Source: Diplonema papillatum (taxonomy: Eukaryota; Euglenozoa; Diplonemea; Diplonemida; Diplonemidae). From it: DNA of 64,000 nt. Shown here in pieces: positions 16,651-56,721 of this stretch. Location of the stretch: positions 124,001 through 188,000 of the forward strand of contig JAPJBO010000109.1 in assembly GCA_030068145.1 (NCBI GenBank), given 5' to 3'. The notes under the pieces were generated by a model. The model saw only the letters and a program-made list of their open reading frames with translations. It was not told the origin of the DNA and searched no databases. Position 1 is the stretch's first letter. Every line of letters starts with the position of its first letter. A program made the position numbers and the translations under genes.

Positions 16651-16652
16651 GG

Positions 16653-16830
16653 TGCACTAGTCAAGGGATTTTTTGACTTTGACTAGTGGTTTTACTAGTC
16701 AAAATTTTGACTAGTAAAATGACTAGTGCCACTAGTAAAAATGACTAGTGCACTAGTAAAAATGACTAGTGCACTAGTAAAAATGACTAGTGCACTAGTA
16801 AAAATGACTAGTGTCCCTGGTAAAAATGAC
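16653..16830 (+). repeat. Palindromic satellite ACTAGT array with CACGGTG end (element end, 'E3')
   Basis: The array starts CACGGTGCACTAGTCA and continues as copies of TGACTAGTGCACTAGTAAAA. The monomer is largely self-complementary. The start has the same seven-base end as the elements at 27238 and 33615. No inverted partner end was found to the right within several kilobases, so this looks like one end of a truncated element. It may once have included the zinc-finger ORF at 17284-17712. Confidence 0.7.
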
Positions 16831-17283
16831 CAGTGCCCCTGGTAAAAACCCCGGATTTGCTGGGAATTCCCCTTGGAAATGACAAGTTCATTCTTACACG
16901 GGGAAGTTCAGTTCTGTCGATTTGGCCACACTCAAATTCTGGTCTGCAGAGGTTCGGTTTGCAGCTATCGGTGCTTCTGTAGCACTCGTCATTGGTGATA
17001 ACCTGTTCGGGGCCTGAAGGTGCTAATAACTGGCGATGAGAGCCGAAAATAGTGGCTGCCATGAAGCTTTTGTGCTCCGCATCTTGCCACTGTCGCGGAC
17101 GAGAAACATCGTAGAAGAAGGGTGAACACGAGAGGCTGCTGCCAACAACAGTGAAGAAGGGGCCAACATGACCGTTTATTATGGTGATCGCGGACAAAGT
17201 CGGGATGTTGAGTACAAGAAACAGAACGAGACATCAGTGACAGTGCCAACTGCTGCACTACATCTGCATTCTAGAAATTAGGA

Positions 17284-17712
17284 CTAACCTCCACCCAAGT
17301 GGGTATCGCGCATATGAAAATCCCTACTGCGGGAATCTGCGAACCTTTGCATGCATAGTGGGCAGGTTTTCTTGTCGAGCTTCTCAGCATGAATGTACAA
17401 CAGGTGCTGGCTCAGCCCGCCCGTACGAACTGTTTTATTGCACGCTGGGCATCGCGTTGTGCATTCACAAGTGAATGCGGGGCGGTGGTTCGCATCGTAG
17501 TGAGCAAAAAGGCCGTAGATTCGAGCCTGGGGGGGGAACGTTGTATGGTCTAGCTTGGAGAAAATTGGAAAGGTTGTAAAAGGTTGGGGGTCACCGTCGG
17601 TTTGTGATTTGATTTTTACTTTGTGAGGCGGGAGGGGGTTTTCCTTTTGTGCCGTCAGAGCAGGGTCTGGCAGAATCTTTTTTAACCGGCCTGTTTTGTC
17701 ATTTAATGTCAA
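17284..17712 (-). CDS. C2H2 zinc-finger protein with an 'HYDxxHRP' lead-in
   Basis: This 142-codon intact frame starts at the ATG at 17712. After a basic, proline-rich N-terminus, residues about 66-78 read IYGLFAHYDANHRP. Two C-x2-C-x12-H-x4-H fingers follow: one from CPACNKTVRTGGLSQHLLYI plus H, the other from CPLCMQRFADSRSRDFHMRD plus TH. Broken relatives with the same lead-in lie at 21413-21628 and 33831-34080, each inside a palindrome-ended element. It is probably an element-encoded DNA-binding protein. Its own element end is at 16653. A cellular transcription factor is the alternative. Confidence 0.6.
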   Translation of the reverse strand: MTLNDKTGRLKKILPDPALTAQKENPLPPHKVKIKSQTDGDPQPFTTFPIFSKLDHTTFPPQARIYGLFAHYDANHRPAFTCECTTRCPACNKTVRTGGLSQHLLYIHAEKLDKKTCPLCMQRFADSRSRDFHMRDTHLGGG

Positions 17713-17719
17713 CTTGAGA

Positions 17720-19200
17720 ATACTTTTTTTTTAGTGGAAGAACCCTTTTTTTAACCATGCATGATAAGCGCCAGCTTGAAAGGAAATGCTCGACGATGCT
17801 GCCTGACAAAAAGAACAGAAGGGATCCCAAGTGCTGTAACTACCGAACCACGTGTTGAACAGACGTGAGGTCATGCGGGTCTACCCCTACACGACAAATA
17901 ACACGAACACAACAGGTCAAAGTCCGGAGTGAGAAAACAACACACGGTGGTGTATGCGAAGAACAAATCAGATTGTGTTTGTACTGTTTTTTTGCCTCGA
18001 CCTCCCTTCCATTCGGAGTCGAAGCAGCGACCGTCGAGTATTTTTGAGCAGGCCGAGTTTGGGCCCTCTCTTCAGGTTGTTCTTCTTCTTTTTCACCTGG
18101 TAATGTCTTGGGTGACAGGGTGCATGGTCCCGGGCGGTTTTGGAAGTTTTTCCTGACTTTCGCACAGGACAAAATCTGTGACAAAAGGCCTGTTTGCCAC
18201 CCATTTGGGGTCTGTAAGTCTCCGGAATGGCTTGGCAACTTCTCATCTGCAAGGACAAGGCATCAACAGCATGATTTCAAGAGAAAGTGCATTCTAGTCT
18301 GCATCCTGGAAGTCGTCATCGTCCAGGCATTTGTACACATTGCTGGGATGCGCACTATGTTGAATTGTCAGTCGCTTTTGTTTGACTGTGGCTGGTTTCT
18401 GTGAGTACACAGGTGCAGATGCCAGTCTCCTTCATCACAGGCCAAACTACACAACTCAAACCTAGAAAAAAAGTGCATGTGTAGTGAGCGGTTGTGTGAT
18501 GGAGCGAGAGGCCCTGTATCACAGTATATTATTAGTCGGTTAATATTAATCTTAGCGTCTTATACGACAAACAAAAATCCTTGTATGAAAGTCAGTGCTC
18601 CCGCTGAGGAAAAACCCGGAGGAATTCCTCAAAAAAAAAAGAAGTGCTGAAAATGCCCCGGAGGAAATCGTGAAGCGTAGGAGTGAACCGGTGTGTAACT
18701 AGTACTGGTCATGAAGTCTTTGCAGCATCTTTCTATCCTAGTGGCTGCAAAAACATCCGCGCCTGGGTAAAGATGTGGCTGATGGTACGAGCATCTTGTC
18801 ACATTTGGCGTCAAAACTGACTGAGTCCAACACAAAACTGTGCTATCCTCATGCTTATCAGTGACAACATGCCAGTTCCCGGGATCTTCGTACCGCCTCT
18901 GACACGAAAAGCCTCCAATTTCTTTCCGCGCCGCCGGCGCAGGTATTTATCTCATTATTTGCTCGTTTTGTTCACTGGCAAAGGATTCATATCAAATTTG
19001 TAAGATGTGCTGATGACTAGCAGGAGTGTAGTGATGGGATCTCGCTTATGAGAATTCCTAGTGCTCCAGCACCTTTGGGCTGACGCACTGCAGTGGCATC
19101 TACTACGATCTACGCTGCACGAACAGCATGAAAATGCTGGCCTTTTCTTCCTCCGGCATATCGGAGGTTAGCGGCGGTGGGATCCATCCTAGAAGCTGGA
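17720..19200. other. Unassigned sequence with one shared repeat
   Basis: The block at 18045-18115 (GGCCGAGTTTGGGCCCT and TTCTTCTTTTTCACCTGGTA) recurs at 26128-26172. No frame shows a recognisable domain. Confidence 0.35.
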
Positions 19201-19212
19201 GTCGAGTTTAAA

Positions 19213-19958
19213 GTACGTGCGCTCGGCTAAAGGCCGGCGCGGGGGCAGTTAAAGTTCGGGAAACAGCAAAGCTCGGGCGAAGCTAAGTTCGGGCGATGCT
19301 AAGTTTGGGTGATGCAAATTTCTGGTGAACCAAAGTTCAGTTCAGGCGAAGCAAAGTTCGGGCGCAGCTGAGTTCGGGCGAAGCAAAGTTCCAGTGAACC
19401 AAAGTTCGGGCGAAGCTAAATTCTGGTGAAGCAAAGCAAAGCTTGGGTTCTGGTGATGCTAACTCGGGCGGAGCTGAGTTCGGCGTGTGGTAGCAAGGTT
19501 AGCCTGTGATGGCAAGTTCGGCGCCAGTACCCGGGGGGAGACCCTAAGGTCTGGTGAAGCAAAGCAAAGTGCGGGCGAAGCAATTCGGGTTCTGGTGACG
19601 CTGAGTAACAGTGAGTTCGGCGTGTGGTAGCGAGTTTAGCGCCAGTACCCGGGGGGGAGACCCCCCGACTCCGTTTCCCGTGGTGCCCAAATACCGCGAG
19701 ATACTGAGAAACCGAAACCCAACAAACCTCGAAAACAATCTTCGACCGGAAAAGTGTGAGGGGCGGGGTTCGAACCCGGGCCGACCGGCCTGAAGGCCGG
19801 CGCCCGCTCACTCTGCCACCCCTGTGCATTTTGCCAGAAGGAAAAAAAGCTTGCTCTGCACTATAATCTAGTCCAAAAACAATACAGTTTCATAATTGCA
19901 AGAAAAGCCGGGTTGGCTCGAATAGAGGCTATTCACATTGCATGTTCATAGGACCTCC
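19213..19958 (-). mobile_element. tRNA-headed minisatellite element, copy 1
   Basis: On the minus strand the order is: a conserved 5' block (AGGTCCTATGAACATGCAAT and AATAGCCTCTATTCGAGCCA), a tRNA-like unit (19747-19826), a short array of AAGTTCGGGCGAAGC-type units (19250-19560), and a 3' block (GCCGAGCGCACGTAC). The same order occurs at 50488-52180. The shared head, body and tail mark one repeated element, SINE-like in having a tRNA-like head. Confidence 0.7.
19747..19826 (-). tRNA. tRNA-like sequence (probable SINE head, not a functional tRNA)
   Basis: The minus strand has an A-box-like TGGCAGAGTGAGC and a perfect B box GGTTCGAACCC. An anticodon-type stem is formed by GCCGG and CCGGT. The anticodon loop can only be 6 or 8 bases, and the acceptor stem pairs only partly, so I do not call a functional tRNA or an amino acid. 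It could still drive RNA polymerase III transcription of the element. Confidence 0.5.
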
Positions 19959-20330
19959 CAGCCCCAGTTACAACCAACGTGTATATCCACACCATATCCG
20001 CTTTTTCGAGACTGACCTCACCGTGGGAGCACTGACAGACACTGCTAAAAAAAGCGCGACACCGCGACAGCACCAAAAGAAACCTCCTCAGGCCTTCCTC
20101 CGGCATTTCAGAGGTAAGCGGGAGCACTGATGAAAATATTGTTTGTGCGATTTGACCTGGACGCGTTCAGCTTAAACCGGTAGTATGCTCACTAAGGAGG
20201 TGGTTACTGGTTATCGCAAACAATGTTGCGTTTTCAAAACCCGGGTCCAGGGTTGCGGATTACACAGACACCGCTGCGAGTGAGAGATTTTGTTGTGTTT
20301 CCGGCGATTTTTTTCCCCTGCAGTTTATTA

Positions 20331-20612
20331 AGGTTCCAGGGAAAGCCTGCTACACGGGAGCCAAGCTTCACGTGTTCGGCGGTACTGCAGAGCAACGGGC
20401 CTACGGGTCAAGTGGCTACCGATTTCCCAAACTAAAGCATCAAGGCGTGGCGCACCTTGGGGCTTGGCGCTAGCGCTGAACACCAGCTCGTCGAGACGGT
20501 CAACCACAGGGCAGAGTGGAAGGGCTGTAGCTCTGTGCTGCCTCCGACTCAAGCTTTGCAAGCTGTGGTTGACCGTCACGTTCCTGGACCAGGAGCGGCT
20601 TTTTTTCTTTTT
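20331..20612 (+). repeat. Dispersed repeat family C, copy 2
   Basis: This copy is very similar to 9694-9968, with the same start (CAGGGAAAGCCTGCTACACG) and the same pyrimidine-rich end. It differs from copy 1 by scattered substitutions. Confidence 0.8.
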
Positions 20613-20859
20613 TTCTTTTCTTCTTCTCTCCCCTGCAGTATTAGTAAACACGGCGGCTAAGAAAGCGACATATGGGTAGGATTCCGCGCCTACCTGCTTA
20701 GCTACTCGCGCGTCTCTGAAGATCCGAGTGTAAGCGTCGGCCCGGTTGTTTTTTTACTCCACGCAGTGGTTTCCCGCTTACCCCCCCCCCAGGGGTGGCC
20801 CTAAGCGGCCAGATTGCGGAGTCGTTGGCAGAATCTGACCTGACCCACCCCCCCCCCTA

Positions 20860-22470
20860 CACCACGTACTTGTCATGCGTATGACAAGTACGTTGTACTT
20901 GTCATATGACAAGTACAATGACAAGTACAATCCATGACAAGTAGGTACTTGTCATATGACAAGTACATACTTGTCATATGACAAGTAAGTACTTGTCATA
21001 TGACAAGTACATACTTGTCATATGACAAGTACCTACTTGTCATATGACAGGTTTTGTGAAGGAATTACTCTAGTCTCGCATACAATTGGCTGAGAAAAGT
21101 ATGGTATATAACCCAATACTCGCAAAAAGTATTGATTCAAGCGACAACTGACCGATCAAGCTCTGTGGCAGAAGAAACAAAGACGGAAAGCTCTCCCAGT
21201 CCCTGCACCTAGGTCCCAAAGGGGTTTGTGCGAGATCTGCGGTGCAAATGGAAGAAAGGAATTGCGTGTCTACAGGCAAGCTTTTATCAAGGGCTAGTTC
21301 ACCCGAGGATCCCATAAAGATAGTGGCACCACGAAACGAGGAAAGAACGGAAGATGTGTTTCCGTTCCCTTCGAGAACAAAAGGTTGGAGGCACAGAGGA
21401 CAGGTTTTCTTATCAGCTTCTTTGGATGCACATACAGTAAGTGTTGCCTAAAGCCAAGTGTCCCGACATGCTTTTGCAGAACGGGCAGTTCTGCTTGACT
21501 CGCGTGTATGGAGGCCGATGGTAGGCGTCATATTGTGCATACAAACCCCTGATGCTGGAAAAGCCATTCTTTCGGCACATGCAACAAAAGACTGCTTCCT
21601 CGGTACTGTCCTCTGCTTCAGCAAACACGCCACGGTGTGTCCCTGTTTCCCTACAAACACACGCCTTCAGATCGCCCCCTCGTCTTGCGGGCTACCAAAA
21701 TACTTCTGGCCCCACCCTGTCTTTTTGCCGCTGTGCTCACTAAAGCCCACGTTGCGAAGTCGAGTCCAACTTTTGGGTGGCCTGGTCGTTAGCACGAGCA
21801 ATACACTTACACAAGTGTATTGCGTCGTTCGTCAGAACTTCTGGAACTGGTGGAATAGGCGGCGGACGGAGAGGTTTCAGTTGAAAATCAACATGTTTGG
21901 TCTGGAGTTCGAAGGATAGCATGTCGCGTCGAATGTTTGTCGGGAAGTGTGGGATGCCCATCGCTTCCCATGTCGCGGACTTCTTGTTCTCGTTTTTGTC
22001 TTGTCCAGGTGTGCGGGTTTGCGCTTATGGTGAGGGGCGTGTGGTTGTTGCCTGCAAGCAGGGTTTGGTTGGCCGGACACGGCAGTTGATCTGTCTGTGT
22101 CCAATTCCTTTCTTCCATTTCGCACCGCAGAACATAGCCATCTCGCGCAAACTCCTTTGGGACCCAGGTGCAGGGACTGGGAGAGCTTTCCGTCTTTGTT
22201 TCTTCTGTCACAGAGCTTGATCCGTCAGTTGTCGCTCGAATTAATACCGTTTGCGAGTATTGGGTTGTATACCATACTTTTCTCAGCCAATTGTATGCGA
22301 GAGTAGAGTAATTCCTTCACAAAACTTGTCATATGACGAGTAAGTACTTGTCATATGACAAGTAAATACTTGTCATATGACAAGTATGTACTTGTCATAT
22401 GACAAGTACATGCTTGTCATAGTACTTGTCATAATATGACAAGTACATGTACTTGTCATATTAAAGTGGA
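20860..22470. mobile_element. Palindrome-ended transposon-like element 'E2'
   Basis: Both ends carry arrays of ACTTGTCATATGACAAGT, a near-perfect palindrome (20868-21052 and 22325-22460). Inside them the next 200 or more bases are inverted copies of each other (21061-21262 and 22098-22320; for example CAATTGGCTGAGAAAAGTAT facing ATACTTTTCTCAGCCAATTG). The unique middle holds a broken zinc-finger gene. The left tip reads CACCACGTACTTGTCA, which partly matches the CACGGTG ends of related elements. A clear target duplication is not visible. Confidence 0.8.
21413..21660 (-). pseudogene. Frameshifted C2H2 zinc-finger relic inside E2
   Basis: One frame reads IRGLYAQYDAYHRPPYTR and CPFCKSMSGHLALG. 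Shifted frames then supply RQHLLYVHPKKL and DKKTCPLCLQPF. Together they match the order of motifs in the intact ORF at 17284-17712, so the gene was alike but is now broken by at least two frameshifts. Confidence 0.6.
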
Positions 22471-22950
22471 TGTCATGTTGAAGTGGATGTTGCTGGTAGC
22501 ATTGAAGCTACTCTTGAAACAATGGAACAGGACGAGTTTGCACTAAGATACAGAGTGCGGCACCGCCATGCAATGTGATCAAGTGACCTGACTCTCCTGG
22601 GATAACTGATTCAACGACGCTATGACTCTGTCCTTCATGAGCACTTGCTGCGCGCCTTCGAGCCGGGTGGCCTGGAGCATCTTTGCTTAAGTATTTCCTA
22701 CAAAGCAGGTGCTCTGACAGCTCATACAACAGAAGAAAAGGGGAAGTAAAGTTTTCGTTGACCGCACTCACCAGAACACACATCCTTTGACCATTCAGCC
22801 GTGGGTACGACAATCGTTGGCGTCTCCGTTGGCACGGCGGGAAGTAGATGACAGCGCGGCTGTTAAATTGTCAAGCAGGAGGGAGGAAAGGAAGGAAGGT
22901 AGTACTTTTAGTAATACTTGATGAAAGTGTTGTCTCAAGGTCCCGCGTTG
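22471..22950. other. 3' flank of the astacin-PLAT gene, unassigned
   Basis: This is the sequence downstream of the stop codon of the astacin-PLAT gene at 22951. A minus-strand frame (22508-22813) is open but shows no domain. A poly(A) signal is not obvious. The block TTTCCTACAAAGCAGGTGC near 22695 also occurs near 24988 in intron 2. Confidence 0.35.
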
Positions 22951-24260: not shown

Positions 24261-24830
24261 CTGAGGGTGATGCACGGTACTTGCAATGTATCTGAGCAGA
24301 CCTCGTTCGTTAACGCTGGGGGTGATGCAAGGTACTCGTATCTCTACAATGTATCTGAGCAGACCTCGTTCGTAAACGCTGGGGGTGATGCAAGGTATTC
24401 GTATCTCTACAATGTCTGAGCAGACCTCGTTCGTAAACGCTGGGGGTGATGCAAGGTACTCGTATCTCTACAATGTATCTGAGCAGACGTCGTTCGTAAA
24501 CGCTGAGGGTGATGCAAGGTACTCGTATCTACAATGTAGCTGAGCAGACCTCGTTCGTAAACGCTGAGGGTGATGCAAGGTACTCGTATCTCTACAATGT
24601 ATCTGAGCAGACCTCGTTTGTAAACGCTGAGGGTGATGCAAGGTACTCGTATCTCTGCAATGTAGCTGAGCAGACCTCGTTCATAAACGCTGGGGGTGAT
24701 GCAAGGTACTCGTATCTCTACAATGTATCTGAGCAGACCTCGTTCGTAAACGCTGAGGGTGATACAAGGTACTCGTATCTCTAGTGTGTCTGAGCAGACC
24801 CGGTTTGTAAGCGGAGGATAATGCAAAATA
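24261..24830 (-). repeat. 63-bp minisatellite built from the intron-2 splice acceptor
   Basis: About nine units of roughly 55-63 bp each contain CTTGCATCACCCTCAG, the same sequence that forms the functional acceptor at 24261-24275. In each unit it is followed by CGTTTACGAACGAGG, which resembles the first exon bases CGCCTACGAACGTCG. The whole intron-exon junction has therefore been tandemly copied back into the intron, giving many decoy acceptors upstream of the used one. Confidence 0.85.
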
Positions 24831-25108
24831 CTCGAGGGACTGCCTTTTGCTCATTTCGAAGGAGGCTAGAGGGGGAGAAAACAATACAACTACAAAGTGG
24901 GTCTTTTTGTTGAACGCCTACGCCCGCCACTAAACCCAGATTTACTTACATTTACCTCCTTTGATCTATCGCAACTGGCAGTCTCCTCAAGCATTTCCTA
25001 CGAAGCAGGTGCCTATACAACAAAGGTATCTCGTCTCTCTCCCCTCCGACCTTTGCTTTCTCATCCTTGCTCGTGATCCCTTTCTAGAGGCTTGGGACAA
25101 GAACACAC

Positions 25109-25744
25109 CTGGTACAATTTTGACGGTCGTGCTGCACGTCGTGCTAATCGACGCATTCGTGGCGGCGGTGAAAGTGGCGGCCACGGTGTAAACCTTGTCC
25201 ATGTCGAGGAAAGAAGGTTGGAACAACACCCTTCTGGAAGAGCTGTCGTCCATCACGGTGCCCGGAGGAAACGTCGTGGAAGACTCTGGTGTCGTGGTAA
25301 GAGAGTAATCGACGTACACAGACTGACCGGCCGTCCACTCAACATTGAACTGGCACAGGTATTCCTGGTACGGGTCGACCTCATTCGCCTCAAGCTCGTC
25401 TTTGTTAGTCATGCACACAGGGGCTGCAAACACGGCAGAGCATCCGTTGTACATGAAGTCAAGCGTAGCGATGTCACCCGCCGACAAACCGCTTCGCTGT
25501 CCGATGGGCTGCGGGGATATGATAGCCTGTTCCCCGTTGGTGCTGAAGTCATAGTTGCCGTAATGCATGAGGCTCCCGTAATCATACTTGCCCAGGTCGC
25601 GGTCGGACGCATCCATCTTGGCAAAATTGTGCCTAAAGGCGGGGGCGACGTTGTTTTCGCGGACGGTGACAAACTCGTCTCTGTCGAACCTCACCTGCTC
25701 GTGCTTAACGCCAAGGCTGTGATAGATTTCGTGCACCACGATAC
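25109..25744 (-). CDS. Astacin-PLAT protein, exon 2: catalytic half of the protease
   Basis: Acceptor CCACACAG and donor ACCAG/GTGTGT bound 636 bases. The exon starts with two bases that complete the split glycine codon of exon 1. It reads IVVHEIYHSLGVKHEQ, the astacin zinc site HExxHxxGxxHEQ, then VRFDRDEF. The Met-turn motif SLMHYGNYDFS follows about 50 residues later. Both are diagnostic of peptidase family M12A. A linker domain with a few cysteines (APVCMTNKDELEANE to CSTTVKIVP) leads into the PLAT domains. Frames past the donor belong to intron 2. Confidence 0.92.
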
Positions 25745-25999
25745 CTGTGTGGAGTTGATCCGCATTCCATTCAGTTGGCCAACATCGAGAGACTCATCGT
25801 TTTTCCAAGATCCGCATCACTACCGGTGGGTCCGCTCCGTGGGCGGCATTTTTGGCATACCCAAACCCTACACTGGTGAAAATCGGCTGTTTTTGCGATG
25901 TCTGCCGGTAAAGTAATATGTGTCGTCTGCCGAAGCAGCCGGAGACAGCAGGCGCAGGGGGCAGGTCTTGCTTTACTTTTCTCTTCATCATGTCATCAT

Positions 26000-26175: not shown

Positions 26176-26394
26176 TTAGGGATCTCCATGTGAAGCACGG
26201 ACATGGAAACTGTGACAGTGACGTGATCTTCAGTTTGGTGTTGGTTCGCTCATTGCTCAGGCTTACATTTTTGGAACACATTGCAATGTCTCGCGCAGCC
26301 TGCTTAGGTGCATTCAGCAATCAGGCCATTGGCTGCTAAGCACCCCCCCGACCGGTCGATTTGCCACGGGCTGCACCCGCCGAAATTGAAGCTG

Positions 26395-27086
26395 GAAGGG
26401 TGCTGCTCCAACCACCACGAGGACGGGGACGGGCTTGCGGTGAAGATGTGCACGAAGCATCATCGCATGACAGCGTGCTATACGTGCACGTCGGTGACGG
26501 CGTGCTACAAAAACTCGCGTGCCGACGTGCGATACGTGCATGCGGTACGAGGACGTGCTGTGCCGCAGGCTGCGGTGCCGCAGGCCCAGGCAGTGCTGCA
26601 AGCGGGCACCACGGAGCACGGCCAGCGGTAAAGCGAGGGCGGGCGAGCGCGTGCGCCTCGAAGGTGCCGGAGCCGAAGCCGCGGCCACAGGGCCCACAAC
26701 CAACGGATCGGACGCCGCCACCGAACGGTGAACGTGCAAAAGGGACGGACAGCGCCTGCTTGCAGCGGAAGCGCGGACGCGACGAAGAGCAAGCAGGTGG
26801 GAGCGCTCGCAAGAAGCCGACGCCGCAGCAGCCGCCTCTGAACGAGAAGCGCACCCCAAAACAGGACAGCCCACAAGCCGAGCCGAAGCCGAGCCGCGAA
26901 GACGAGCAGGCTAAGGAGTCGAGATCTCGGCCGCGGAAACAACCTGCGAGGGAGAAAAGGAAGTGCGCCGAATCATCTGATTCCTCGTCATCAAACTGCA
27001 CATCGGACGTGAAGCGCGCACCGGAGACAAACAGTACGCGGGGCAAGAAGCGACCGAAGCAAGACACGACGCGTGCAAAGAGGTAG
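26395..27086 (+). pseudogene. Frameshifted Cys/His-rich and basic-tail gene
   Basis: Three overlapping plus-strand frames each give part of one protein. The first reads CCSNHHEDGDGLAVKMCTKH and ACYTCTSVTACYKN. The second gives MPTCDTCMRYEDVL and QCCKRAP. The third is a long basic, disordered tail ending in RGKKRPKQDTTRAKR. The first two match the C-x2-H...C-x2-C...CC module order of the ORF at 28507-29535. Two frameshifts make it a probable pseudogene; unusual splicing is the alternative. Confidence 0.5.
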
Positions 27087-28361
27087 TCTGTAGCCGGCTT
27101 CGACACAGATTGTTGCTGCATAACAAGTTCAAACTATAGTTACTAGTAGTTACTAGTCAATAGTAGTAGAGTGGTCCAGCAGCGGCTGCAAAAACTTGCC
27201 GCGACACTTGTCAAAGTAAAGAGAATGAAACTGTCTACACGGTGGACCGGTCATGGTCATGACCGCATGTTTGACCGGTCAGTTTTTGACCGGTCAGCTG
27301 AGAAAGTTATGCGGTCATTGACCGCACCCTTGCGGTCAATGACCGCAACATTGCGGTCAATGACCGCAATGTTGCGGTCATTGAACGCATCCTGTGGTAA
27401 GCCACAAGGATTCCTGCCTTTTTGGGTTGAAAATCACCCGGTCTCGGTCTCTCTCTTTTCTGGTAAACGTGCTTCTGCGTTTCGGGGGTCAGAAACGCTG
27501 GTTGGAGAAAAGGTATGTTGGGTGTCACCTACAGGCCTTTTTTGTGGGATTTCTGAGGTCACAATCACACGGTGTGCTCCAGCACCGGGTGAACTGTGCA
27601 GTCCATTTTGCGGGTGTCACACCTGCACCTGTGTAAAGTTTAGATGGCTTCGAAGTTGTAGACGTTGGAGTGCCGCGGTCTTGACCAGGACTCGTCTGGC
27701 CGCTCGCGCTCCGATCTGTGCCAAGCAGTCGGGGCGCGAGCGGAGGCACCAAATTTATGGCCTCATACGTCAAGAACCTTGTGCGCCCTGGACGCCCGCA
27801 TACTCGAGGTTCTAAGCAGCGCCAGAAACTCGCCCAGAATCTGCGGAGCAGCGCCGTGGTCATGGACGGCATCGAAGATCGTCCTGAACTCCTTCACGCC
27901 CGGCGGCTTCGCCCGCCGTGGGTCCGGCGACTCCTCCTGAGGACAGCCATCATCCTACTCACGCTCTTTCATTGAGCGGGTCGTCGAGGACACACGCCGC
28001 CGCTTTGTTCTCCGCCAGCACGGACGCCATGATGTTTAGGGGCACCCCATAGGCCCATTGTCGCCCATCAGCAACAGGCGACCACCGCCACCGTAGGGCC
28101 CGACGCCCATGCCTCGACACTTGGGCCTGTAGTCCGTGGCTCTCGGAGCAGGGAGCCCCGGGGCTGGTCGGTGCCCGGGGCTCAGCCCCGGAGCGCTCCA
28201 GGAGCCCGACAGGGACGGGCATAGAACACACTTTCTACTGTTTTCCAGGTAGATCCGTTCCCAGCCGCGAGCGAGGCGACTCCTCGACTCGTCTGTGGGA
28301 GAGCGGCAGAAGAGGATAAAGGCCTCCCAGAGCTTGTATATCCCAGCACCTTTCTTTCTTC

Positions 28362-28520
28362 CAGTTCACTTTGGTCGTCAACGCAAACCCGTCAACGCTC
28401 CGAATCTTCATCGACGGGTGAAGATCAGAGCCAAAGGGGACAACTTTATCGGTCTCAGGGGTGAACACCGACGACCCCCTGCAGATGGCGCAGTACATGG
28501 CGCAGCTTGGGTGCGGCGGC
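28362..28520 (+). other. Possible small exons upstream of the Cys/His-rich ORF
   Basis: A strong plus-strand acceptor (CTTTCTTTCTTCCAG) precedes a frame reading FTLVVNANPSTLRIFIDG, then a donor-like GTGAAG. A second AG (CGGTCTCAG) precedes NTDDPLQMAQYMAQLG. These look protein-like and could be 5' exons of the gene at 28507-29535. The minus strand is also open here, so the call is weak. Confidence 0.25.
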
Positions 28521-29535
28521 CATCACTCGGACGGTGTTAGCGAGTTTTCAGATTTTTCTGGACTCGGTGCCGTCGCCGCCAAAGAACCTGGCAGACCAGA
28601 TCACTGCCTGGGGAGCTTGGCCGACGGCCGCCGCCCAGGCTTTGATGTGGGCAAGGGGCGGTACGGACTCGTTGCCGCTCCTCTATCCGCATCGTGCTGC
28701 GGCACCTCGATGGGATCTCGGGCCCGAACTTCCTGCTTTTCCCGGGCCACGAGTACCAACAACTGCTCGGGACCTGAAGTCCTATTTCTTCCAATTCCCA
28801 GTAGGACGGCCGACGCCGGGGAGCCCAACGGGCTACGAGATGAGGCCAATTTTCCGCGGCGGCGAGGAGACGATGGGAGTCTTGGAGACGCAGCTGAAGG
28901 CGAGCGGTGAGGCGTGGGGGATGGACCTTTTCCCGACGCACGGAAGAGAGAGGGCGGAGCGTGCAGCGAGATGGACGGCCTTCGACGACACCACGGAGAA
29001 GAAGAAGGGCAAGAAGTCGGCCGTCGTCGGAGGAGACCCGTGGCTCGTACCGGAAGGGATTCCCGGACACGAAAAGTGGGGTGAGCGGAAAATGTGTGCC
29101 GAGCACCGGATGACGCAGTGCACCACATGTAAGACGACAACGGAATGCTGTCGCAACCATCACCACCGATGTCTCGACCATGAGATGCCGACGTGCGACA
29201 GCTGCAAGAAACACGCCGACCTGGGGAGTAGGAGACGCGGGCACTGCTGCAGGGAAGGGCACCACCGGGCGGCCGTGGCGAGAGGAGAAGAATCAACGAC
29301 GAAGAAGAGGAAGGCGGAGCCGGAGGGCCCCGCGTCAGCGCCGAGACAGGCGAAGCGTGAGAACGTGGTGCTCGTTCTGCCGGAAGCAGCGGAAGGCGAG
29401 CGAGGACCCGCAACATCGACATCGACTTCAGCAGCGAAGGTCGGGAAGACGGCGCTTTCTTCGGGCTTCGGACCAGGAGACCCGACGGGGGCGTGGCTCT
29501 GTATTGGTGGCGCCTGGGCAGGTCGTTTTCTATGA
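28507..29535 (+). CDS. Cys/His-rich protein encoded in element E4
   Basis: This open frame has 342 codons. The first 190 residues are of uncertain reality, because other frames here also look protein-like. From about residue 196 comes a clear double module: CAEHRMTQCTTCKTTTECC with RNHHH, then CLDHEMPTCDSCKKH and GHCCREGHH. The spacing of Cys and His suggests zinc binding. A basic, nuclear-localisation-like stretch (KKRKAEPEG) and a Thr/Ser/Ala-rich tail follow. Related modules occur at 11298-11726 and 26395-27086. The family is unknown to me; mobile-element cargo is the likeliest role. Confidence 0.5.
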   Translation: MGAAAITRTVLASFQIFLDSVPSPPKNLADQITAWGAWPTAAAQALMWARGGTDSLPLLYPHRAAAPRWDLGPELPAFPGPRVPTTARDLKSYFFQFPVGRPTPGSPTGYEMRPIFRGGEETMGVLETQLKASGEAWGMDLFPTHGRERAERAARWTAFDDTTEKKKGKKSAVVGGDPWLVPEGIPGHEKWGERKMCAEHRMTQCTTCKTTTECCRNHHHRCLDHEMPTCDSCKKHADLGSRRRGHCCREGHHRAAVARGEESTTKKRKAEPEGPASAPRQAKRENVVLVLPEAAEGERGPATSTSTSAAKVGKTALSSGFGPGDPTGAWLCIGGAWAGRFL

Positions 29536-29702
29536 TTGCGCAGGACTCTGATTTTGTCATCACGGAGCTTGCCGGGGACGACAGGATAGTCTGGTACGAA
29601 GACTGGGCCCTCGTCGGTGCCTGTCCGGACGCGCTTCGCGCTGTGCGCAACCGGGTCCTGCAGCGTGCCCGTATGGTGCGCATGATGGTCAAGGACGAGT
29701 AG
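29520..29702 (+). CDS. Possible C-terminal continuation of the Cys/His-rich gene
   Basis: In a shifted frame just after the previous ORF, a frame reads DSDFVITELAGDDRIVWYED and then PDALRAVRNRVLQRARMVRM before a stop. The composition is that of a folded protein. Either a frameshift or a small intron separates it from the ORF ending at 29535. No domain is recognised. Confidence 0.3.
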   Translation, partial: RSFSMIAQDSDFVITELAGDDRIVWYEDWALVGACPDALRAVRNRVLQRARMVRMMVKDE

Positions 29703-30221
29703 TCTGTCCTCGAGCAAGGACGAGAAGTCTGTCCTCGAGCCCAGCTCGACGCCGGTTGTCCTGGGAGTCGAGTTTGACTTCGCAGCGAAGAGGTACCGGC
29801 TATAGCAAGGGTGGGTGCAGAAGCCGCACCTCCTCTTTTGCTCTGTCGATTTGACGCAAATGACTCTGCGCGGCGTCTGGAAGTCGTCGAGACCGCCATT
29901 TGAGCGCGGATGGTGACCCTGGCGCACCAGGTCCTGACCGGTTCCCTGGGCTGGGAGTCGCTAGTCCGCGTGAGGGACGATATCGTTCCGTTCCTGCGGG
30001 GGTGAGCCGGCGTCTATCGGACAACCGGTGGGTCGGCTTCGACTCGAAGCTGCACCCTCGTGGAGGCGTGGTCCGATGCCAGCACGCAGGGACGGGCGGG
30101 ACTGGTGGGCTCTCACAGTTGCACACAGGGAGTTGATGCACCACGAAAGTCGAAAAGAGATTTGGGATAGCATGCAAGAATCTGTAGCGATAATCTGCAT
30201 CGCCGGTTCGCACGTGATGTG

Positions 30222-30479
30222 TCACGCTTTCGCCTCTTTAGCCCCCTCGGGCGATGGCCGCGCTTCGATGGGCGTTCTACGCCGTTTTGTTGTCGGCTCC
30301 GACGCAGAGTTCGTCCGCTTCTTCGCTCGCGTGAGTGCCGTCTTCTTGACCCTCGCCGCTGGCTTTAATGTTGATGTTGCGGGTCTCTGATGTTGTTTGT
30401 CTTCTGCTGCTTCAGGTAGCATTCCGGGTGTGCTCTTTGTCGCTTTGACGATACGTGGCGAGCAACGTTTTTCCCTCAT
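30222..30479 (-). pseudogene. Basic-tail relic related to 56101-56463
   Basis: This minus-strand frame is rich in Lys, Arg, Thr and Ala (KKTALTRAKKRTNSASEP, TTKRRRTPIEARPSPEGAKE). The flanking sequence (GATAATCTGCATCGCC and TCGCACGTGATRTGTCA) is shared with 56050-56130. It also resembles the basic tail of the Cys/His-rich gene. Only the C-terminal part seems present. Confidence 0.4.
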
Positions 30480-31190
30480 GTGGAAACCGAGTCAGTAATC
30501 GGTTCCCTCAACCCGCTGACCATGATTGGCGCTGATGCTCGATTCGATTGTACTTACGGTGAGGCAGTTTCTCACTGGCGTTGTGGTGGATGGAAGGTGA
30601 CCTCGCCCAAGCTCGTTTCCCGGGTTAAGGCAGTCACTCAACATTCCCTTGCGCTAGTGATATCAGTTACAAAGACGTGTTCTTACTTTTCCCTTTCTTC
30701 TGGGCAGTTCTCGTCAGACAATACGAAGAGCAGAAATTCCATGGCGATGTGGGCCCCGTAGAGATGTCCCGCAGCACATCTTCTTTGCCGAGCTGACGAC
30801 AGCAAAGTTTGCGACTCCGCTGTCGACAAGTAGAATCTTTGTCGACAACTTGCCTTTGTTTGTGCGCTCGCAGCCTTTGTTCGCACTTTCTCTCGTTGAA
30901 GAGATATTGTGCTATTTGCAAAGGCTGCCTTCCTGTTGAAATCATCTGTTCTCATAGTAGTGGACGCCACACTAATTTTTGTGTACGCCGGACACAACTG
31001 TTTGCGAGACTGGAGGCACTCGTTGCATCGAAGAGTTTGCAAAGGTCGACAGTCAACCTTGGGTTTTACATCGTCTGTTACGATGGAAAGGTGCGTGGCG
31101 TCCCGTGTCTTTCTTCGCACGGGCTCACCGTCGCATCGTTTGAGAGAACTACACAACCAGGCTCGTTGCCAATCAAAACACTGTCAGCTG

Positions 31191-31243
31191 CCCGTGAAAG
31201 TGTCTCACTCCTCTGCGAGGTCGGTCTGAGACGCTTTCACGGG
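31191..31243. other. Strong hairpin near the right end of E4
   Basis: CCCGTGAAAGTGTCTCA and TGAGACGCTTTCACGGG pair over 17 bases with one wobble or mismatch and a 19-base loop. In the plus-strand direction it is followed by TAAAAAGGG. It could be a structured RNA end or a recombination site; its function is not shown. Confidence 0.6.
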
Positions 31244-31516
31244 TAAAAAGGGTGAGCCACTTACACGGGGGGTACGTATAGTTGTTAAGTGCGTACTTCG
31301 AGAATTAGGCCTTGCATGGGTTCACTTTGCTGCCTATTTTACCTTGCAAACTGTCATAAGTACCGGTTATTGACCGCAACCTTGCGGTCAATGACCGCAT
31401 GGGTGCGGTCAATGACCAGTACCCTACCGGTCAATGACCGCAAGGTACCGGTCAACATTATTGCGGTCAGCGTGGTGCGGTCATTGACCGCACCAGCCCT
31501 TGACCGGTCCACCGTG

Positions 31517-32560
31517 TACATATGAGTCGATGCCAAAAGGGGGGGGGGGGGGGGCAGTGCTGACACTACCCTGAGAGCTCCCAACGACTTTGCAAGGGAC
31601 CCCCCCCCCAGGGGTGGCCCTAAGCGGCCAGATTGCGGAGTCGTTGGCAGAATCTGACCTGACCCCCCACCCCCCCCCAGGGTGCGCACTAAGGGACGTT
31701 GCCCCCGTTGCACGTTGCACCCCCCTTTGGGGGGGGAAAATGTTTCTTGGGTTTGAAGAGCGCGTGGTGCTTGCACCACTGAGGCGGGGGGGGGGGTCGT
31801 TTTGGGGGCTGTTTTTGGGGTGTTTCCCAGACCCCCCGGTGCCGAGTGGGTACTCCGTTTCCTCCAGATGAATCCGTTCTCCTCGTTTTCGAAATCGAAA
31901 CCCACTTTTGCGGAAAAAATGGTCAATCCCCACCAAAATGTTTTCCTGCACTTTTTTGGCAGGGAAATGTACTTAGCAACTTTTGAGCAAAGTCAGTTTC
32001 CCCGAAAACCAAGATTCCTGCAGTGCACTCAAAAATCAGCCAAAATCTGGAAAATTGGCCCAAAAAGTGAAAATTCGAGCAAATTTGGCCGATGTACCAT
32101 GTGCTTTCCCCAAAATGCCAATACCCCCCAAAAGCTGTTTTTCAGGCAAATCCGCTGGGAAACGTACATAGAGAGTTTCGAAACAACGGCACCAAGAAAA
32201 CCACGAAAGGGCAGATTTTCCCGGTTTCAGCCTGTGTTTTGCACGTCAAATTTCAGGCCTCACAGACGAACCGAGGACGGAGTGGAAAGATCCATCGCGA
32301 AAGAGCGCGTTTAAGGGGGTCCCCGGAAAAAAGGGTGGGGGGTCCCCGGCCACCAGGTGCACCGAACAGGACCCCCCCCCCCCCCTTCCAAATTTAGCAG
32401 ACGTTGACATTGCCCGTTGCACCCCCCAATCGCCCCCCCCCCCCCCCCAGTGCTGATGCTAAGGCCCCTAAACTCGGCATCGTTGTCAGCCGGACGGCAA
32501 CGAGGGGTGGGTGGGTACCCCCCCCCCCCCCCCCAAAGATGGTATAATACAAGGGTCAAA
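31517..32560. repeat. Homopolymer-rich composite repeat
   Basis: Runs of 10-18 G or C alternate with shared blocks such as AGGGGTGGCCCTAAGCGGCC and TTGGCAGAATCTGACCTGAC, which also occur at 20790-20850. Frames through it are proline- or glycine-rich and not credible. It lies between elements E4 and E1 in the astacin intron. Confidence 0.65.
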
Positions 32561-32564
32561 TAAT

Positions 32565-33560
32565 TAAATACAAATTCAATAATAAAATACAATAAAATAC
32601 AATTAAATACAATTAAATACAGAATAAAATACAGACCCTGTAGGCTACAGTGCAGCTGCCTTGTGGTTGATGTTTTTGACATGTCTTTGTGTGTGTGACT
32701 CTAAATGATCCCTGATTCTCGACTACATCTACGACTTTTTCCTTGGCTTCAGCCTGCTTTTCCTCGCGCTTCTTAGTTTCCTCGGCAGCTTTGTTTTTCC
32801 GGTCGATATCGGCAACTAACTCGTCAAGACCTGCCCATATTTGTGGTGGCGTGGACTCTCGCCAAGAAGGCGCTTTTCACCCCATGAAGCTGAACACCCT
32901 CTCTGCGTCACGGAATTCTGAATTCGTGCACCCAGTGTCACACTTCGGAGTCCACGTTCACTTATGTGGGGAGTTGTAGAGTACGGGAGGAACCGGAAAT
33001 CTCCGGAAAGATGGTACCCGCATTCCAACTCGTCTCGGGAAAGGTCAGTCGACGACCTTATGCAGGTGGGTGGACTTGCGTTATCTCTCTGTCCCAGTCG
33101 CCATAGCGACGTTATCCTCGCCCAGCATCATCCTGCAACCCTGCTTTCAGGATGGCCATCGTGCCTCTCATTTTGGTTATCAACCTTACTCCTCGCTCGA
33201 ATTGCCGTCTTCGACCTTCACTGCCCCTGGTCCTGGTGGTTAGGAGTACTTTCGTGACAACCTCTTCGTGCCACCTCTCTTCGTCACTGGTACCTTATCT
33301 TGCACCTCTGCCTGCCGCGGAGTGCACGTCTCTGTCTTCGATGATGGCGAGTCCTTACGCCGCAAAGGAAATACCCCGAAACTCCCCGAATTTCTCTGAA
33401 ATTTCCCGATATTTTCGTCTGGACGAGGTGGATACAGGCAAAATAAAGACATGTCAACTACAGGCAAATGGGATTCCAAATACAGACTTGTATTAAATAC
33501 AAATTCTCCAGAATAAAATACAATAAAATACAATAAAATACAACGAATAAAATACAAGTG
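32565..33560. repeat. Region bounded by AATAAAATAC arrays, with a charged coiled-coil ORF fragment
   Basis: AT-rich arrays of AATAAAATACAATAAAATAC lie at 32565-32632 and 33480-33560, in the same orientation. Between them a minus-strand frame (about 32880-32640) reads WAGLDELVADIDRKNKAAEE and then TKKREEKQAEAKEK, a typical coiled coil. It then runs out through the left array. The arrays may be ends of another element type. I do not recognise the protein. Confidence 0.4.
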
Positions 33561-33614
33561 TATTTTATTATTGCCATCCTTGCCCCCCCCCCCCCCCCCC
33601 CTCCTGCAGGGCCT

Positions 33615-35318
33615 CACGGTGGACTTACAGGGGTTCCTGTATGCTGTACAGCATACAGGAATTCTGTATGCTCCTAGCATACAGCCTGTATGCTACAGCA
33701 TACAGCTGTAAGCTGTAACGTTCAAGTTCTAGTAGATTCCAGTGAGTAGCGACCGGAAACTTGGAAAAAAGAAAAGGGGAAAGCGCACCGATATTTGTGA
33801 GCAAAACATTCGAAAGCAATACCCTGTTCAGGTCTTTCACTGCGCGTTGTGCACTTCACGGACGTGCTTGTCGCGGGCTGTTTGCGATGGTAACCTTTCA
33901 AAACACAACGGGCAGCAGTTCGGGGTGAGCTCTCCCTTGTGGTTGGAGAAGTAATGCTGTGATAAGCCGCGCACTGCGATTGAGCTACAGCAGATTTTGC
34001 ACTTTCCTTTGCAGAGAGGACAAGGCTTGTTGCTATTCTCACGGTGTTTCTGGTCGTAGTGCGCGTAGAGGGATTTCAGATCCGGAAAAGAGCATCTGCA
34101 GATGAGACCCTCTCGACGGTCGCTGCCACAACCTTTTCCACTTCTTCCGTAAGCGGCACGTACACCAACACGACACCGTTCTTGTTGACGACCTTTGGCG
34201 GTGCGTTCGGGCTCACTCGGAACTTCAGGGGGACGTTCACGGTGACTGGAAACGTCCCAGATCCGATGTCGGCGTCCCCGCCCACATCTCTTACAATGCT
34301 CAGGGACACCTTGTGCCCTGTCCTGCTTGGGGCCTCATCGCTTACGGAGCCCAACCCCGTCTCCAAGATGGTGACGTAGCCGGTGCCGACCTTCCCTCGT
34401 CGAACTTGCAGGGGGTACTTCTTCTTTGCTTCCGCGCCGGGGGCAATTTGCTGTACCGCCCCGCGGTAGATATCAGCGACGTTGGTTTCGAGGGTATAGC
34501 CCGGCAGAAGGGTCTTTTCGAGGACAGCGGCATGTGCTTTGTAGCCGGCTGCTCGCTTGTCAACCCTTGTACGCACGCAGATACCGTGGTACACGGTTTC
34601 GTTCGCCCCCCTCACTTTGTAAATCGAGGGAAGGTCATCCCCCCTTCCCGCATCTCCTTCACCTCGGTTGCCTTCATCTCGACGGGTTTCCACTTGCCGG
34701 TGACCGCTTTCTGCAGGGCACCGTCCTTGTTGCTGCTGTTGGCTCCAGCAACCATCTTCTCGATGGTGCTCCTGAGAGCCGGCATCCGGATTTCACCTTC
34801 CGGGTCTTCTCTCAGGAACAGTGCCACAAAGGCATTGATGGCGTCGTTCCTCGGCACTTTGGGCGAGGAAGACTGCTCTTCTCTTTTGCGCTTCCCCGCT
34901 TTAGCTTCTGGTGTCTGCTGCTTCGCTGACATTGCTTGTCTTTTTTCTTTTTCTTTTTGACTCTTACTATTTTAGAGTTTATCACAATGAGCTGAAGCAG
35001 TGATGGATGGCAGATTGGTAAGCACGCAAGTGAATGTAAATAGTAGCGTACGTAGATGGCCAGTAAACGACAGGTTTTCGTAAACTAAGCAGGGTGCCAC
35101 TTACACGCCAATACACGGCCCAGCGCTGCCCTAGTGCCATCTCTGGCGCGCGCAAGCCGCCACACCACCGCTAAACACAGGAATCTGCTATGCCACAGCA
35201 TACAGCTGTATGCTTGTAGCATACAGCTGTATACTACAGCATACAGGCTGTATGCTGTAGCATACAGGTAGTTTAGCATACAGCCACAGCATACAGGGAC
35301 CCCTGTAAGTCCACCGTG
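33615..35318. mobile_element. Palindrome-ended transposon-like element 'E1', 1.70 kb
   Basis: The left end reads CACGGTGGACTTACAGGGGT and the right end is its inverse. The next blocks are arrays of the palindrome CTGTATGCTRCAGCATACAG (33635-33710 and 35185-35305). The single gene inside reads on the minus strand with two frameshifts. No clear target duplication is visible (CT on the left, CA on the right). It lies in intron 1 of the astacin gene. Confidence 0.85.
33831..34932 (-). pseudogene. Element E1 gene: basic N-terminus, unknown middle, C2H2 fingers (two frameshifts)
   Basis: Three consecutive frames make up one product. Frame 1 (34932-34612) starts MSAKQQTPEAKAGKRKREEQ, with a nuclear-localisation-like signal and an alpha-helical part (DAINAFVALFLREDPEGEI). 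Frame 2 (34693-34076) continues with VRGANETVYHGICVRTRVDK and about 180 residues of beta-rich sequence of unknown fold. Frame 3 (about 34083-33831) carries SLYAHYDQKHRENSNK and two fingers, including CPLCFERLPSQTARDKHVRE plus VH, then a stop. The fingers match 17284-17712. The frameshifts make this copy defective unless unusual decoding occurs. The middle domain is a candidate catalytic or DNA-binding domain of the element. Confidence 0.6.
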
Positions 35319-35912: not shown

Positions 35913-35918
35913 GTATAC

Positions 35919-36378: not shown

Positions 36379-36557
36379 ACTTCTTATGTACTTTTGTTGC
36401 GTTCTCCTTTTCTTTCTGACCTGACGCAGGGTTTCTATTCTATAGGGTTCCGAATTTCTGATGTCTTGAGGGGGTTGTTGAGCAGGATTGAAACATCGGG
36501 CACATGTGCACTGAGCACCTGACAGTTGTTGCGCAGGATTGAAACATCGGGCATGCG

Positions 36558-56661: not shown

Positions 56662-56721
<60 letters not shown>

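Follow-up and report, generated by a model that had tools for sequence, protein, structure and literature searches.

Four features of the 64,000-nucleotide stretch of Diplonema papillatum DNA analysed here (the window) are, with very little room for doubt, copies of one mobile clan of cut-and-paste DNA transposons. The overall explanation, a clan with CAC..GTG tips, palindrome arrays and an ORF1 + ORF2 gene pair, is one that we consider probable. A complete element measures about 4.3–4.5 kb with ORF1 preceding ORF2, and the clan was split into eight subfamilies (a, b, c, d, g, T, K and y) with differing palindrome units. In the window lie a truncated end, two elements with internal deletions and one element with cargo, as follows.

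16648..17525, minus strand: 3' part of a truncated subfamily a element (tip, array, last ORF2 codons); 880 bp match L020 at 98.75%, with no homology beyond.
16648..16850, no strand: tip CACGGTG and half-site CACTAGT, then an ACTAGT array of 21-bp period; 72 of 203 bases in palindromes of at least 12 (shuffle mean 0.8, maximum 16), best lag 21.
17284..17523, minus strand: C-terminal zinc fingers of subfamily a ORF2 (HYDANHRP...), in the listed ORF 17284–17712; 68% identical to residues 582–656 of subfamily b ORF2.
20860..22461, minus strand: subfamily g element, internally deleted and decayed; left tip CACCACGTACTTGTCATGCG at 20860–20879, right tip lost; 76–98% matches to L056 and L054.
20896..21049, no strand: g left array of ACTTGTCATATGACAAGT, 22-bp period (TRF); 122 of 194 bases palindromic in 20860–21053, shuffle mean 2.8.
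21476..21937, minus strand: decayed C-terminal part of subfamily g ORF2; 30–33% to ORF2 of b, c and d (tblastn).
22324..22462, no strand: g right array, palindrome ACTTGTCATATGACAAGT (TRF 22324–22421); 96 of 140 bases palindromic in 22323–22462, shuffle mean 2.2.
27238..31516, plus strand: non-autonomous subfamily K element, K ends around unrelated cargo; 19-bp tips 95% complementary, TA/TA flanks.
27310..27393, no strand: left K array of TGCGGTCAATGACCGCA, 21-bp period (TRF, palindrome scan).
28507..29535, plus strand: K cargo ORF containing a stretch rich in Cys and His (CAEHRMTQCTTC...); K copy L059 has a related ORF.
31360..31494, no strand: right K array (TRF, palindrome scan).
33615..35318, minus strand: subfamily T deletion derivative lacking nt 1216–3751 of the 4,292-bp L011; 98.8% and 96.9% to L011 on either side of the gap.
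33840..34106, minus strand: last 89 residues (fingers) of subfamily T ORF2; 100% to residues 529–617 of the L011 ORF2 frame.
34109..34971, minus strand: subfamily T ORF1 in two frames; 98.3% and 95.0% to L011 ORF1.

The sequence-only reading had placed CACGGTG at 27238/31516, 33615/35318 and 16653; this is exact at 27238/31516 and 33615/35318 (inverted CACGGTGGAC), but the end given as 16653 really starts at 16648. The related tip that it assigned to a fourth element is CACCACG at 20860, although the right end there is degenerate, with the array reaching to ~22461. No second tip was found for the 16648 element, and its homology to L020 stops at 17525. A HYDxxHRP motif with a finger, said to be carried by three of the four, does lie on the minus strand in three: the 16648 element has HYDANHRP, the 33615 element HYDQKHRE and the g element a decayed QYDAYHRP, read in L054, which is 98% identical to the window copy. 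At least 150 matches to the finger sequence of subfamily a lie in the genome, with 150 of 617 candidates scored.

Tips were read for a, b, c, d, g, T, K and y and are in each case inverted CAC..GTG sequences (CACGGTG, CACGACG or CACCACG). When the genome was searched for such tips with inverted partners and flanking duplications, as had been suggested earlier, both were recovered. Five tip patterns occur 66, 483, 496, 171 and 267 times genome-wide, against 27, 0, 0, 0 and 2 for their respective reversed controls; the excess is less clear for CACGGTGGACNNAC (66 vs 27), and the other four, among them the tips of subfamilies a (CACGGTGCACTAGTCA, 496), g (171, at ≤1 mismatch) and K (267), lie far above their controls. 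Within the window, CACSRYGNAC has 15 matches, six of which are the named tips, and none of 100 shuffles reaches 15 (shuffle mean 4.8).

A 2-bp target duplication flanks 39 of the 46 inverted tip pairs examined (37/44 in the main set and 2/2 in branch y; chance 1 in 16), the main set becoming 36/43 if L017 is, as is probable, a duplicate of L011. The duplicated dinucleotide in the 37 pairs is TA in 18, CA in nine, TG in four and one of six others once each. Seven of the 46 pairs lack the duplication, including the window T copy (33615..35318), and a 3-bp match was seen at only one of 44 pairs, inside a poly-C tract. Empty sites align ungapped after removal of 2 bp at eight insertions (L010, L015, L070/71, L072/73, L082/83, L090/91, L096/97 and L106); L011/L017, L012, L056, L084/85, L105 and L050, being short, weaker or poly-C, were left out of this count. 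The arrays on their own resemble satellites, but unrelated satellites without mobile boundaries are ruled out, for practical purposes completely, by the duplications, the empty sites and the near-identical dispersed copies.

Both ORFs are open in copies of T, b, c, d, K and y, and the full-length copy with a transposase that the earlier reading had proposed to look for was found in the form of ~4.3–4.5-kb copies with a transposase-like ORF2. Two subfamily d copies at different sites have identical ORF2 DNA (1890/1890), as do two subfamily b copies (1971/1971), the latter possibly duplicated segments. Short copies with clan ends are also present, the MITE-sized ones spanning 182–326 bp. Scans of IMG/VR and GTDB contigs for relatives confirmed 0/33 and 0/18 pattern matches and so give no hint of a viral or prokaryotic origin.

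The arrays consist of a 17–22-bp palindrome repeated at ~21–22-bp spacing inside the element ends. Perfect palindromes of at least 12 were scanned in 14 end regions (eight from the window, six from related loci) and four control stretches, with 200 shuffles. Palindromic bases exceed the shuffle mean in 12 of the 14 ends and every shuffle in 11; the 5' end of L011, with 18, stays below its shuffle maximum of 26. The scan counted even-length palindromes only, which explains the score of 0 at both ends of the 27238 element; the main monomer there, TGCGGTCAATGACCGCA, is odd-centred, with TGACCGGTCA near the left tip. Three control stretches contain 0 palindromic bases and the fourth 12 (shuffle maximum 16). 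A lag of 21 or 22 bp ranks best or second best in 13/14 ends and in 0/4 controls. These results bear out the description of tips running into palindrome arrays. To call the palindrome of each subfamily private overstates the case: the units differ across all eight, but a CTWGT core is common to five of them. In the deepest branches, T, K and y, proteins and palindromes both differ.

The 27238–31516 element carries cargo, and members of its family at other loci do bear a transposase gene. Its sister copy L059 is 92–95% like it, and L059 matches the transposase-bearing K copy L107 at 88% over the first 320 bp, the interiors being unlike. At least two transposase-bearing K copies were found (86 of 441 candidates scored) vs 267 K tips; their existence rules out a reading of K as a separate element type that lacks a transposase. 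The cargo ORF gave a single Pfam match, at E 0.43, below the cut-off. As a check of prediction, y elements were located on C73 and C160 via transposase matches, and these end in CACGGTG tips with palindromes at 22-bp spacing, encode both ORFs and are flanked by TA on each side. For L110, a relative of the y elements, a single CACCGTG end was seen.

ORF2 has a DDE-transposase-like layout in its body and C2H2 fingers at its C-terminus, and it is very probably the transposase of the clan. The motifs GDH, C, LHD, H-x3-H and SDE..E..N occur in order in 12/12 aligned ORF2-type proteins, and D1 in 11/12, the exception, P0005, starting after D1. A C(2)C motif is limited to the x/y branch (RCAVC in L110, HRCATC in the L111 ORF), and 11 of the 12 aligned proteins keep the second C only. 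The ORF2 tree was built with a 30% column filter, which removed the surplus columns of an overlong P0003 row. Neither the ORF2 core nor ORF1 has a Pfam match at its cut-off, and NCBIfam gave only matches below cut-off, the best being L110 ORF2 to IglI (E 0.0011, 18.9 bits vs 100). Outside the fingers, no known transposase family was matched at cut-off in the libraries searched. PDB searches with ORF2 profiles returned 31 and 50 matches, all C-terminal from residue 510, the finger region, and hhalign of ORF2 against one RAG1 core gave a probability of 1.8. When the ORF2 profile was compared with a Transib/RAG block, 128 of 200 shuffles scored as well and the reversed block scored higher; a repeat with two divergent members, a shorter block and softer gap settings left 10 of 300 shuffles as good, with the register right, which is not a clean test since the settings changed too. 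With single ORF2 proteins, 25, 38, 54 and 90 of 100 shuffles were as good. Given no library match outside the fingers, weak profile support and C(2)C in one branch only, membership of EnSpm or Transib is unproven.

The palindrome reader would, by a slight preference, be ORF1 rather than the fingers. ORF1 adjoins ORF2. It diverges faster and, with TnpA of CACTA elements as the model, would be the likelier binder. ORF1 matches on C412, C12, C1439 and C53 lie ~3 kb upstream of the ORF2 fingers on the same strand. No conclusion is drawn from the ORF1 tree, whose branches are long and weakly supported, and the ORF1 profile found one receptor in PDB at E 0.12. Under the proposed mechanism, ORF2 as a DDE transposase would recognise the tip, cut and insert with a 2-bp stagger, while ORF1 dimers would sit on the palindromes, one for every two helical turns, and may fold each end into a transposition complex, as is thought for TnpA on CACTA subterminal repeats. 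The deletion derivatives, the MITEs and the cargo-carrying K elements would be mobilised in trans.

An alternative, which we regard as possible though less likely, is that the C-terminal fingers read the palindromes and co-evolve with them, leaving ORF1 to regulation, end folding or host interaction. The fingers are the sole recognised DNA-binding domain in ORF1 and ORF2, and copies of b, c, d, T, g and y show finger motifs, as does the C286 copy of a; zf-Di19 is matched by L050 (28 bits vs a cut-off of 27.5), and L051 (24), L049 (25.9) and L011 (18 bits) fall below with motifs visible. Against this, finger similarity does not track the half-sites, which were set by eye and compared across four subfamilies, a weak test: CACTTGT is common to b and d although their fingers are only 57% identical, and c and d have fingers 72% identical and half-sites that differ at 3/7 positions. 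Rates of change are also similar in the fingers and the catalytic part (c–d 72 v 71%, b–d 57 v 60%), the relative P0008 ends before the fingers, and L026, the one a-type copy that was read for this, has a changed Cys in finger 1. The separate finger protein of the sequence-only reading is the C-terminal part of the transposase-like ORF2, and its idea of finger–palindrome co-evolution found no support and is weakened. It is far less probable that the palindromes act as single-stranded hairpins or cruciforms, in foldback or HUH-type movement, and not as duplex protein sites: extrusion is conceivable for perfect palindromes and for long inverted repeats, but double-strand cut-and-paste agrees with the 2-bp duplications and with inverted tips at the termini, the regular 21–22-bp phasing fits duplex binding, and no HUH/Y1 family is among the Pfam matches.

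We tentatively propose, at somewhat less than even confidence, a separate eukaryotic DDE transposon superfamily near the Transib/CACTA split, in which the finger-tailed transposase would read a heptamer-like tip, the faster-evolving second protein would read an array phased at two helical turns, and the eight subfamilies would form a series of matched protein/DNA pairs. Diplonemids are among the most diverse marine protists, and a large, apparently recently active transposon clan is hereby added to them. A single genome offers hundreds of tips and eight palindrome subfamilies, the majority having a matched pair of ORF1 and ORF2, so that an old CACTA question, the joint change of helper protein and subterminal repeats, becomes directly testable. 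Rooting of the CACTA and RAG lineages may benefit from the x/y branch, in which C(2)C occurs together with an E block like that of Transib. The MITE-sized copies could bear on the origin of diplonemid noncanonical introns, for which MITE-like transposons are suggested in the available part of a published report (PMC12621601).

As to known systems, the available text of the D. papillatum genome paper lists DNA transposons 'including' TATE, MULE and Helitron, with repeats at 52% of the assembly; none of those names fits the clan, of which that text makes no mention (PMC10161547). Closer in organisation is CACTA/EnSpm, and the earlier comparison was apt in this respect. Like maize En/Spm, Antirrhinum Tam1 and soybean Tgmt*, the clan has CAC-type inverted tips, and its subterminal repeats vary from family to family and are capable of forming palindromes; in the portion of the soybean study available, Tgmt* repeats are family-specific and able to form palindromes, and joint diversification with TNPA-like binders is already raised (PMC2613891). 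A transposase with a second protein, here a putative repeat binder, and deletion derivatives presumably moved in trans are further likenesses. That these are ordinary CACTA/EnSpm elements of the plant and fungal tnp2 family is nevertheless unlikely, since tnp2 (PF02992) was unmatched at E≤10 for four ORF2 proteins and at E≤1 for five more (HMMER filters drop most matches above ~0.1) and the duplications are 2 bp rather than the 3 bp of plant members. The clan also differs in that two separate, consecutive ORFs fit within 4.3–4.5 kb, where CACTA/EnSpm elements splice one long gene alternatively, and in having palindromes that span the whole monomer at 21–22-bp phase and C2H2 fingers on the transposase.

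Transib/RAG membership is more improbable still. The tips resemble the CAC..G type of the RSS heptamer and the Transib tip, the D-D-C-LH-H..H-E..N order is that of Transib, ProtoRAG and RAG1, with spacing similar to human RAG1, C(2)C is present in L110 and the L111 ORF, and the x/y E block SDEAEEAEN resembles SEEASEARN of HzTransib. Yet profile support is weak, pairwise similarity is not significant, no nonamer-like second element was seen, and Transib makes 5-bp target duplications, not 2-bp ones. A layout of the CACTA/Transib (CMCT) type is, by contrast, reasonably likely. Unlike the CMCT clade, the clan has C(2)C in the x/y branch only and no detectable sequence match, the Transib/RAG block alone having been compared, and palindrome arrays and a finger tail go unmentioned for CMCT elements in the accessible part of their description (PMC12730594). 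As set out there, the clade (ESTA, Plavaka, Lanisha and others) has CA..TG termini, 2–5 bp duplications and a D-D-E core with H(3-4)H, and the clan shares its CA..TG termini, a duplication within that range and, in 12/12 proteins, H-x3-H (PMC12730594).

The four elements of the window (16648, subfamily a; 20860, g; 27238-31516, K; 33615-35318, T) belong to a single transposon clan in the 271 Mb, 2910-contig D. papillatum assembly, where the window covers positions 124001-188000 of contig 109. Their tips lie where a sequence-only reading had placed them, except that one put at 16653 is really at 16648. The two ends of the 27238-31516 element pair over 19 bp with 95% complementarity, and those of the 33615-35318 element over 32 bp with 97%. 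Fourteen element ends, taken from the window and from related loci, were scanned for palindromes against dinucleotide shuffles: 12 carry more palindromic bases than the shuffle mean, and 11 more than any of 200 shuffles; the 5' end of the T element L011 falls below its own shuffle maximum, and both ends of the 27238 element come out at zero, since their palindrome is odd-centred and the scan was blind to odd centres. A 12-base palindrome is also present in one of four control stretches. A 21- or 22-bp array lag ranks first or second in 13 of the 14 ends versus none of the four controls.

Tips and array units of the eight subfamilies, with stop-to-stop frame lengths, in codons, of the first gene (ORF1) and the second, transposase-like gene (ORF2).
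a: tip CACGGTG-CACTAGT; array CACTAGT-AARAATG-ACTAGTG
b: tip CACGGTG-CAGTAGT; array CACTTGT-AAATTTT-ACWAGTG; ORF1 342, ORF2 657
c: tip CACGACG-CACTAGT; array GCTAGT-TATATA-ACTAGC; ORF1 349, ORF2 661
d: tip CACGACG-CACTTGT; array CACTTGT-TATATA-ACAAGTG; ORF1 345, ORF2 630
g: tip CACCACG-TACTTGT; array TACTTGT-CATATG-ACAAGTA; ORF1 290, ORF2 a broken gene
T: tip CACGGTG-GACTTAC; array CTGTATG-CTRCAG-CATACAG; ORF1 325, ORF2 617 (both in L011)
K: tip CACGGTG-GACCGGTCA; array TGCGGTCA-A-TGACCGCA; ORF1 383, ORF2 495
y: tip CACGGTG-AGGTCCAGC; array CGGGTGTG-N-CACACCCG; ORF1 429, ORF2 663

The motif CTWGT is common to five of the eight subfamilies. At L047 2050-2130 a different palindrome array (ATTCTCGCATGCGAGAAT) adjoins a truncated copy of type a and may mark one more subfamily.

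Counted on both strands of the genome with the reversed pattern as control, the tips recur 66 versus 27 times (CACGGTGGACNNAC), 483 versus 0 (CACGACGCACTWGTYA), 496 versus 0 (CACGGTGCACTAGTCA) and, with up to one mismatch, 171 versus 0 (CACCACGTACTTGTCATGCG) and 267 versus 2 (CACGGTGGACCGGTCA, subfamily K). By eye, the first 100 of these 267 K tips include 19 inverted pairs spaced 4.1-4.4 kb apart. Among 44 elements or tip pairs, picked for an inverted partner at a plausible distance, 37 have the same dinucleotide on both flanks, where chance would give 1 in 16 (T 7/10; c/d pairs 10/10; K 12/13; a-MITEs 3/4; g and g-MITE 2/2; d 1/2; c 1/1, in poly-C; window K 1/1; window T 0/1); only the poly-C case has a 3-bp match. 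For eight insertions the joined flanks, less 2 bp, match intact sites elsewhere without gaps, and the empty site of the T copy L010 lies in the window itself (16038-16105, 98.5% over 68 bp); six further matches that were short, weaker or in poly-C were left out of this count.

Window 15400-16500 and 31600-32500 are repeats with long poly-C/poly-G tracts, and copies of the former are insertion sites of several clan elements. A T element (L012) and a g element (L056) occupy the identical dinucleotide of one short repeat (TTTTGGCATCGTACCATA) on different contigs, with another T copy (L018) a few bases beyond that point. K elements also nest: one adjoins a g-type palindrome array at L107 5525, and another follows an x/y-type element at L110 5159-5174, the two separated by TA alone.

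A search with the K transposase found a further group, y, on contigs C73, C80, C160, C1382 and C2247. In the two of the five that were fetched, C73 and C160, the structure is as the transposon model predicts, a relative with one CACCGTG end (L110) having been seen beforehand: the elements start with CACGGTG and end with CACCGTG, their palindromes are 22 bp apart and TA flanks both sides. The C73 element has frames for both ORF1 and ORF2, and the C160 element is identical to it over the 4,281 bp compared.

The copies look young, since they are identical or nearly so. The ORF2 DNA of two d copies at different sites is identical (1890/1890), as is that of two b copies (1971/1971), and of eight further distinct T copies, six (L009, L010, L012, L013, L016, L018) match L011 at 98.7-99.8% in long aligned pieces; L014 and L015 share with it no piece longer than 498 bp, the identity being 96-97%. 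L017 is probably a duplicate of L011, as the near flanks are the same.

In L011 (4,292 bp) the ORF1 frame is followed by that of ORF2, and what had been read as a separate finger protein proves to be the last residues of ORF2. The genome holds at least 150 matches to the fingers, with 150 of 617 candidates scored, and at least 104 to ORF1, with 121 of 213 scored. The window T copy equals the L011 element minus nt 1216-3751, and the K ends of the 27238-31516 element, like those of the related L055 and L059, enclose other sequence. L107, on C187, is a K copy with both genes, fetched without its left end; its ORF2 has at least one more close match, on C828 (96%; 86 of 441 candidates scored). Transposase-bearing K copies are few and passengers many.

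Other features of the window were also seen.
11298-11726 (-), 26308-26631 (+), 28507-29535 (+): three ORFs with a Cys/His-rich stretch (C..H....C..C) in common, the last being cargo of the K element; a Pfam scan of 28507-29535 and of 26361-27086, which overlaps the second, gave no match at cut-off
19251-19829, 50538-51895: AAAGTTCGGGCGAAGC-unit repeat, with a tRNA-like GGTTCGAACCC block after it in some places, also at L049, L053, L054 and L057, inside or beside several clan transposons; by eye, possibly a tRNA-derived SINE
24987-25739 (-), with a HEIYHSLGVKHE motif, and 35893-36561 (-): astacin-like metalloprotease pieces, by eye
42905-50206 (-): frame of 2433 codons with the look of a host gene; IQ-like motifs, recognised by eye, are numerous
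56638-56759 (-): eukaryotic 28S rRNA fragment (Rfam, 107.7 bits); about 3600 scattered 28S pieces are reported for this genome in the part of PMC10161547 available

The available parts of the literature on CACTA and subterminal palindromes, diplonemid or protist transposons, Transib/RAG1/CMC and Lanisha (including PMC10161547, PMC12730594, PMC2613891 and PMC12621601) hold no description of these elements; supplements and Repbase were outside this scope, and the elements may already have a database entry or an unpublished one.

ORF2 matches no Pfam or NCBIfam transposase family at cut-off; IglI (E 0.0011, 18.9 bits against a cut-off of 100) and similar hits below cut-off were taken as chance. 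With the best 8000 candidates scored per search, a database of 5.8 billion proteins holds at least ten other relatives (P0001-P0008, P0011, P0012). Six of the ten entered the ORF2 tree and five fall, with mostly weak support, inside its a-b-c-d-g part; if they belong to other hosts, the clan predates the D. papillatum genome or crossed between hosts. All 12 aligned proteins carry GDH, C, P-x-LHD, H-S-x2-H and SDE-x2-E-x2-N in that order, preceded in 11 by D(G/A/D)Y (P0005 begins after that point), and in L110 the second D is followed by the second C at 21 residues and by the E at 208. The landmarks GTGYD, CTLC, ALH, FHKTLAH and GNE of human RAG1 stand in the same order as in L110 ORF2, and SEEASEARN of HzTransib is near the SDEAEEAEN E block of the x/y branch, which also has C-x2-C. 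Earlier tests of ORF2 against Transib/RAG were null and single ORF2 proteins gave no stand-out score against the Transib/RAG block; in a later profile test, with L110 and L107 added, the block shorter and gaps softer too, 10 of 300 column shuffles did as well, which lends the likeness weak statistical support. From its layout, and because it sits in an element proven to be mobile, we call ORF2 a putative DDE-type transposase and, the statistics being weak, claim no membership of CMCT (the clade of CACTA, Transib and kin).

The tree, rooted at its midpoint, supports {c,d} (98/99) and {a,b} (81/80), and the remaining forks weakly (1 of 11 starred). The tip sequence seems to go with the transposase: CACGACG is common to c and d, CACGGTGCA to a and b, and CACGGTGGAC to the outliers T and K. 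The fingers had been proposed to bind the palindrome and co-evolve with it, which the comparison did not bear out: common half-sites do not track finger similarity in the four subfamilies compared, a number too small to test covariation properly, and the fingers and the catalytic part diverge at about the same rate (identities for c-d 72 v 71%, for b-d 57 v 60%, for b-c 61 v 63%). Nor does half-site sharing track ORF1 similarity, since b and d, which have a half-site in common, are 38% identical in ORF1. The fastest divergence is that of ORF1 (identities of 47% for c-d, 38% for b-d, 35% for b-c and 19-23% for T against the others). The ORF2 fingers may instead read the tips. In the TnpA/TnpD pair of CACTA elements, according to the part of PMC2613891 available, conservation is seen in the transposase but not in the protein that binds the repeats; because ORF1, like that repeat-binding protein, is the less conserved, we infer that it is a better candidate than the fingers for reading the palindrome.
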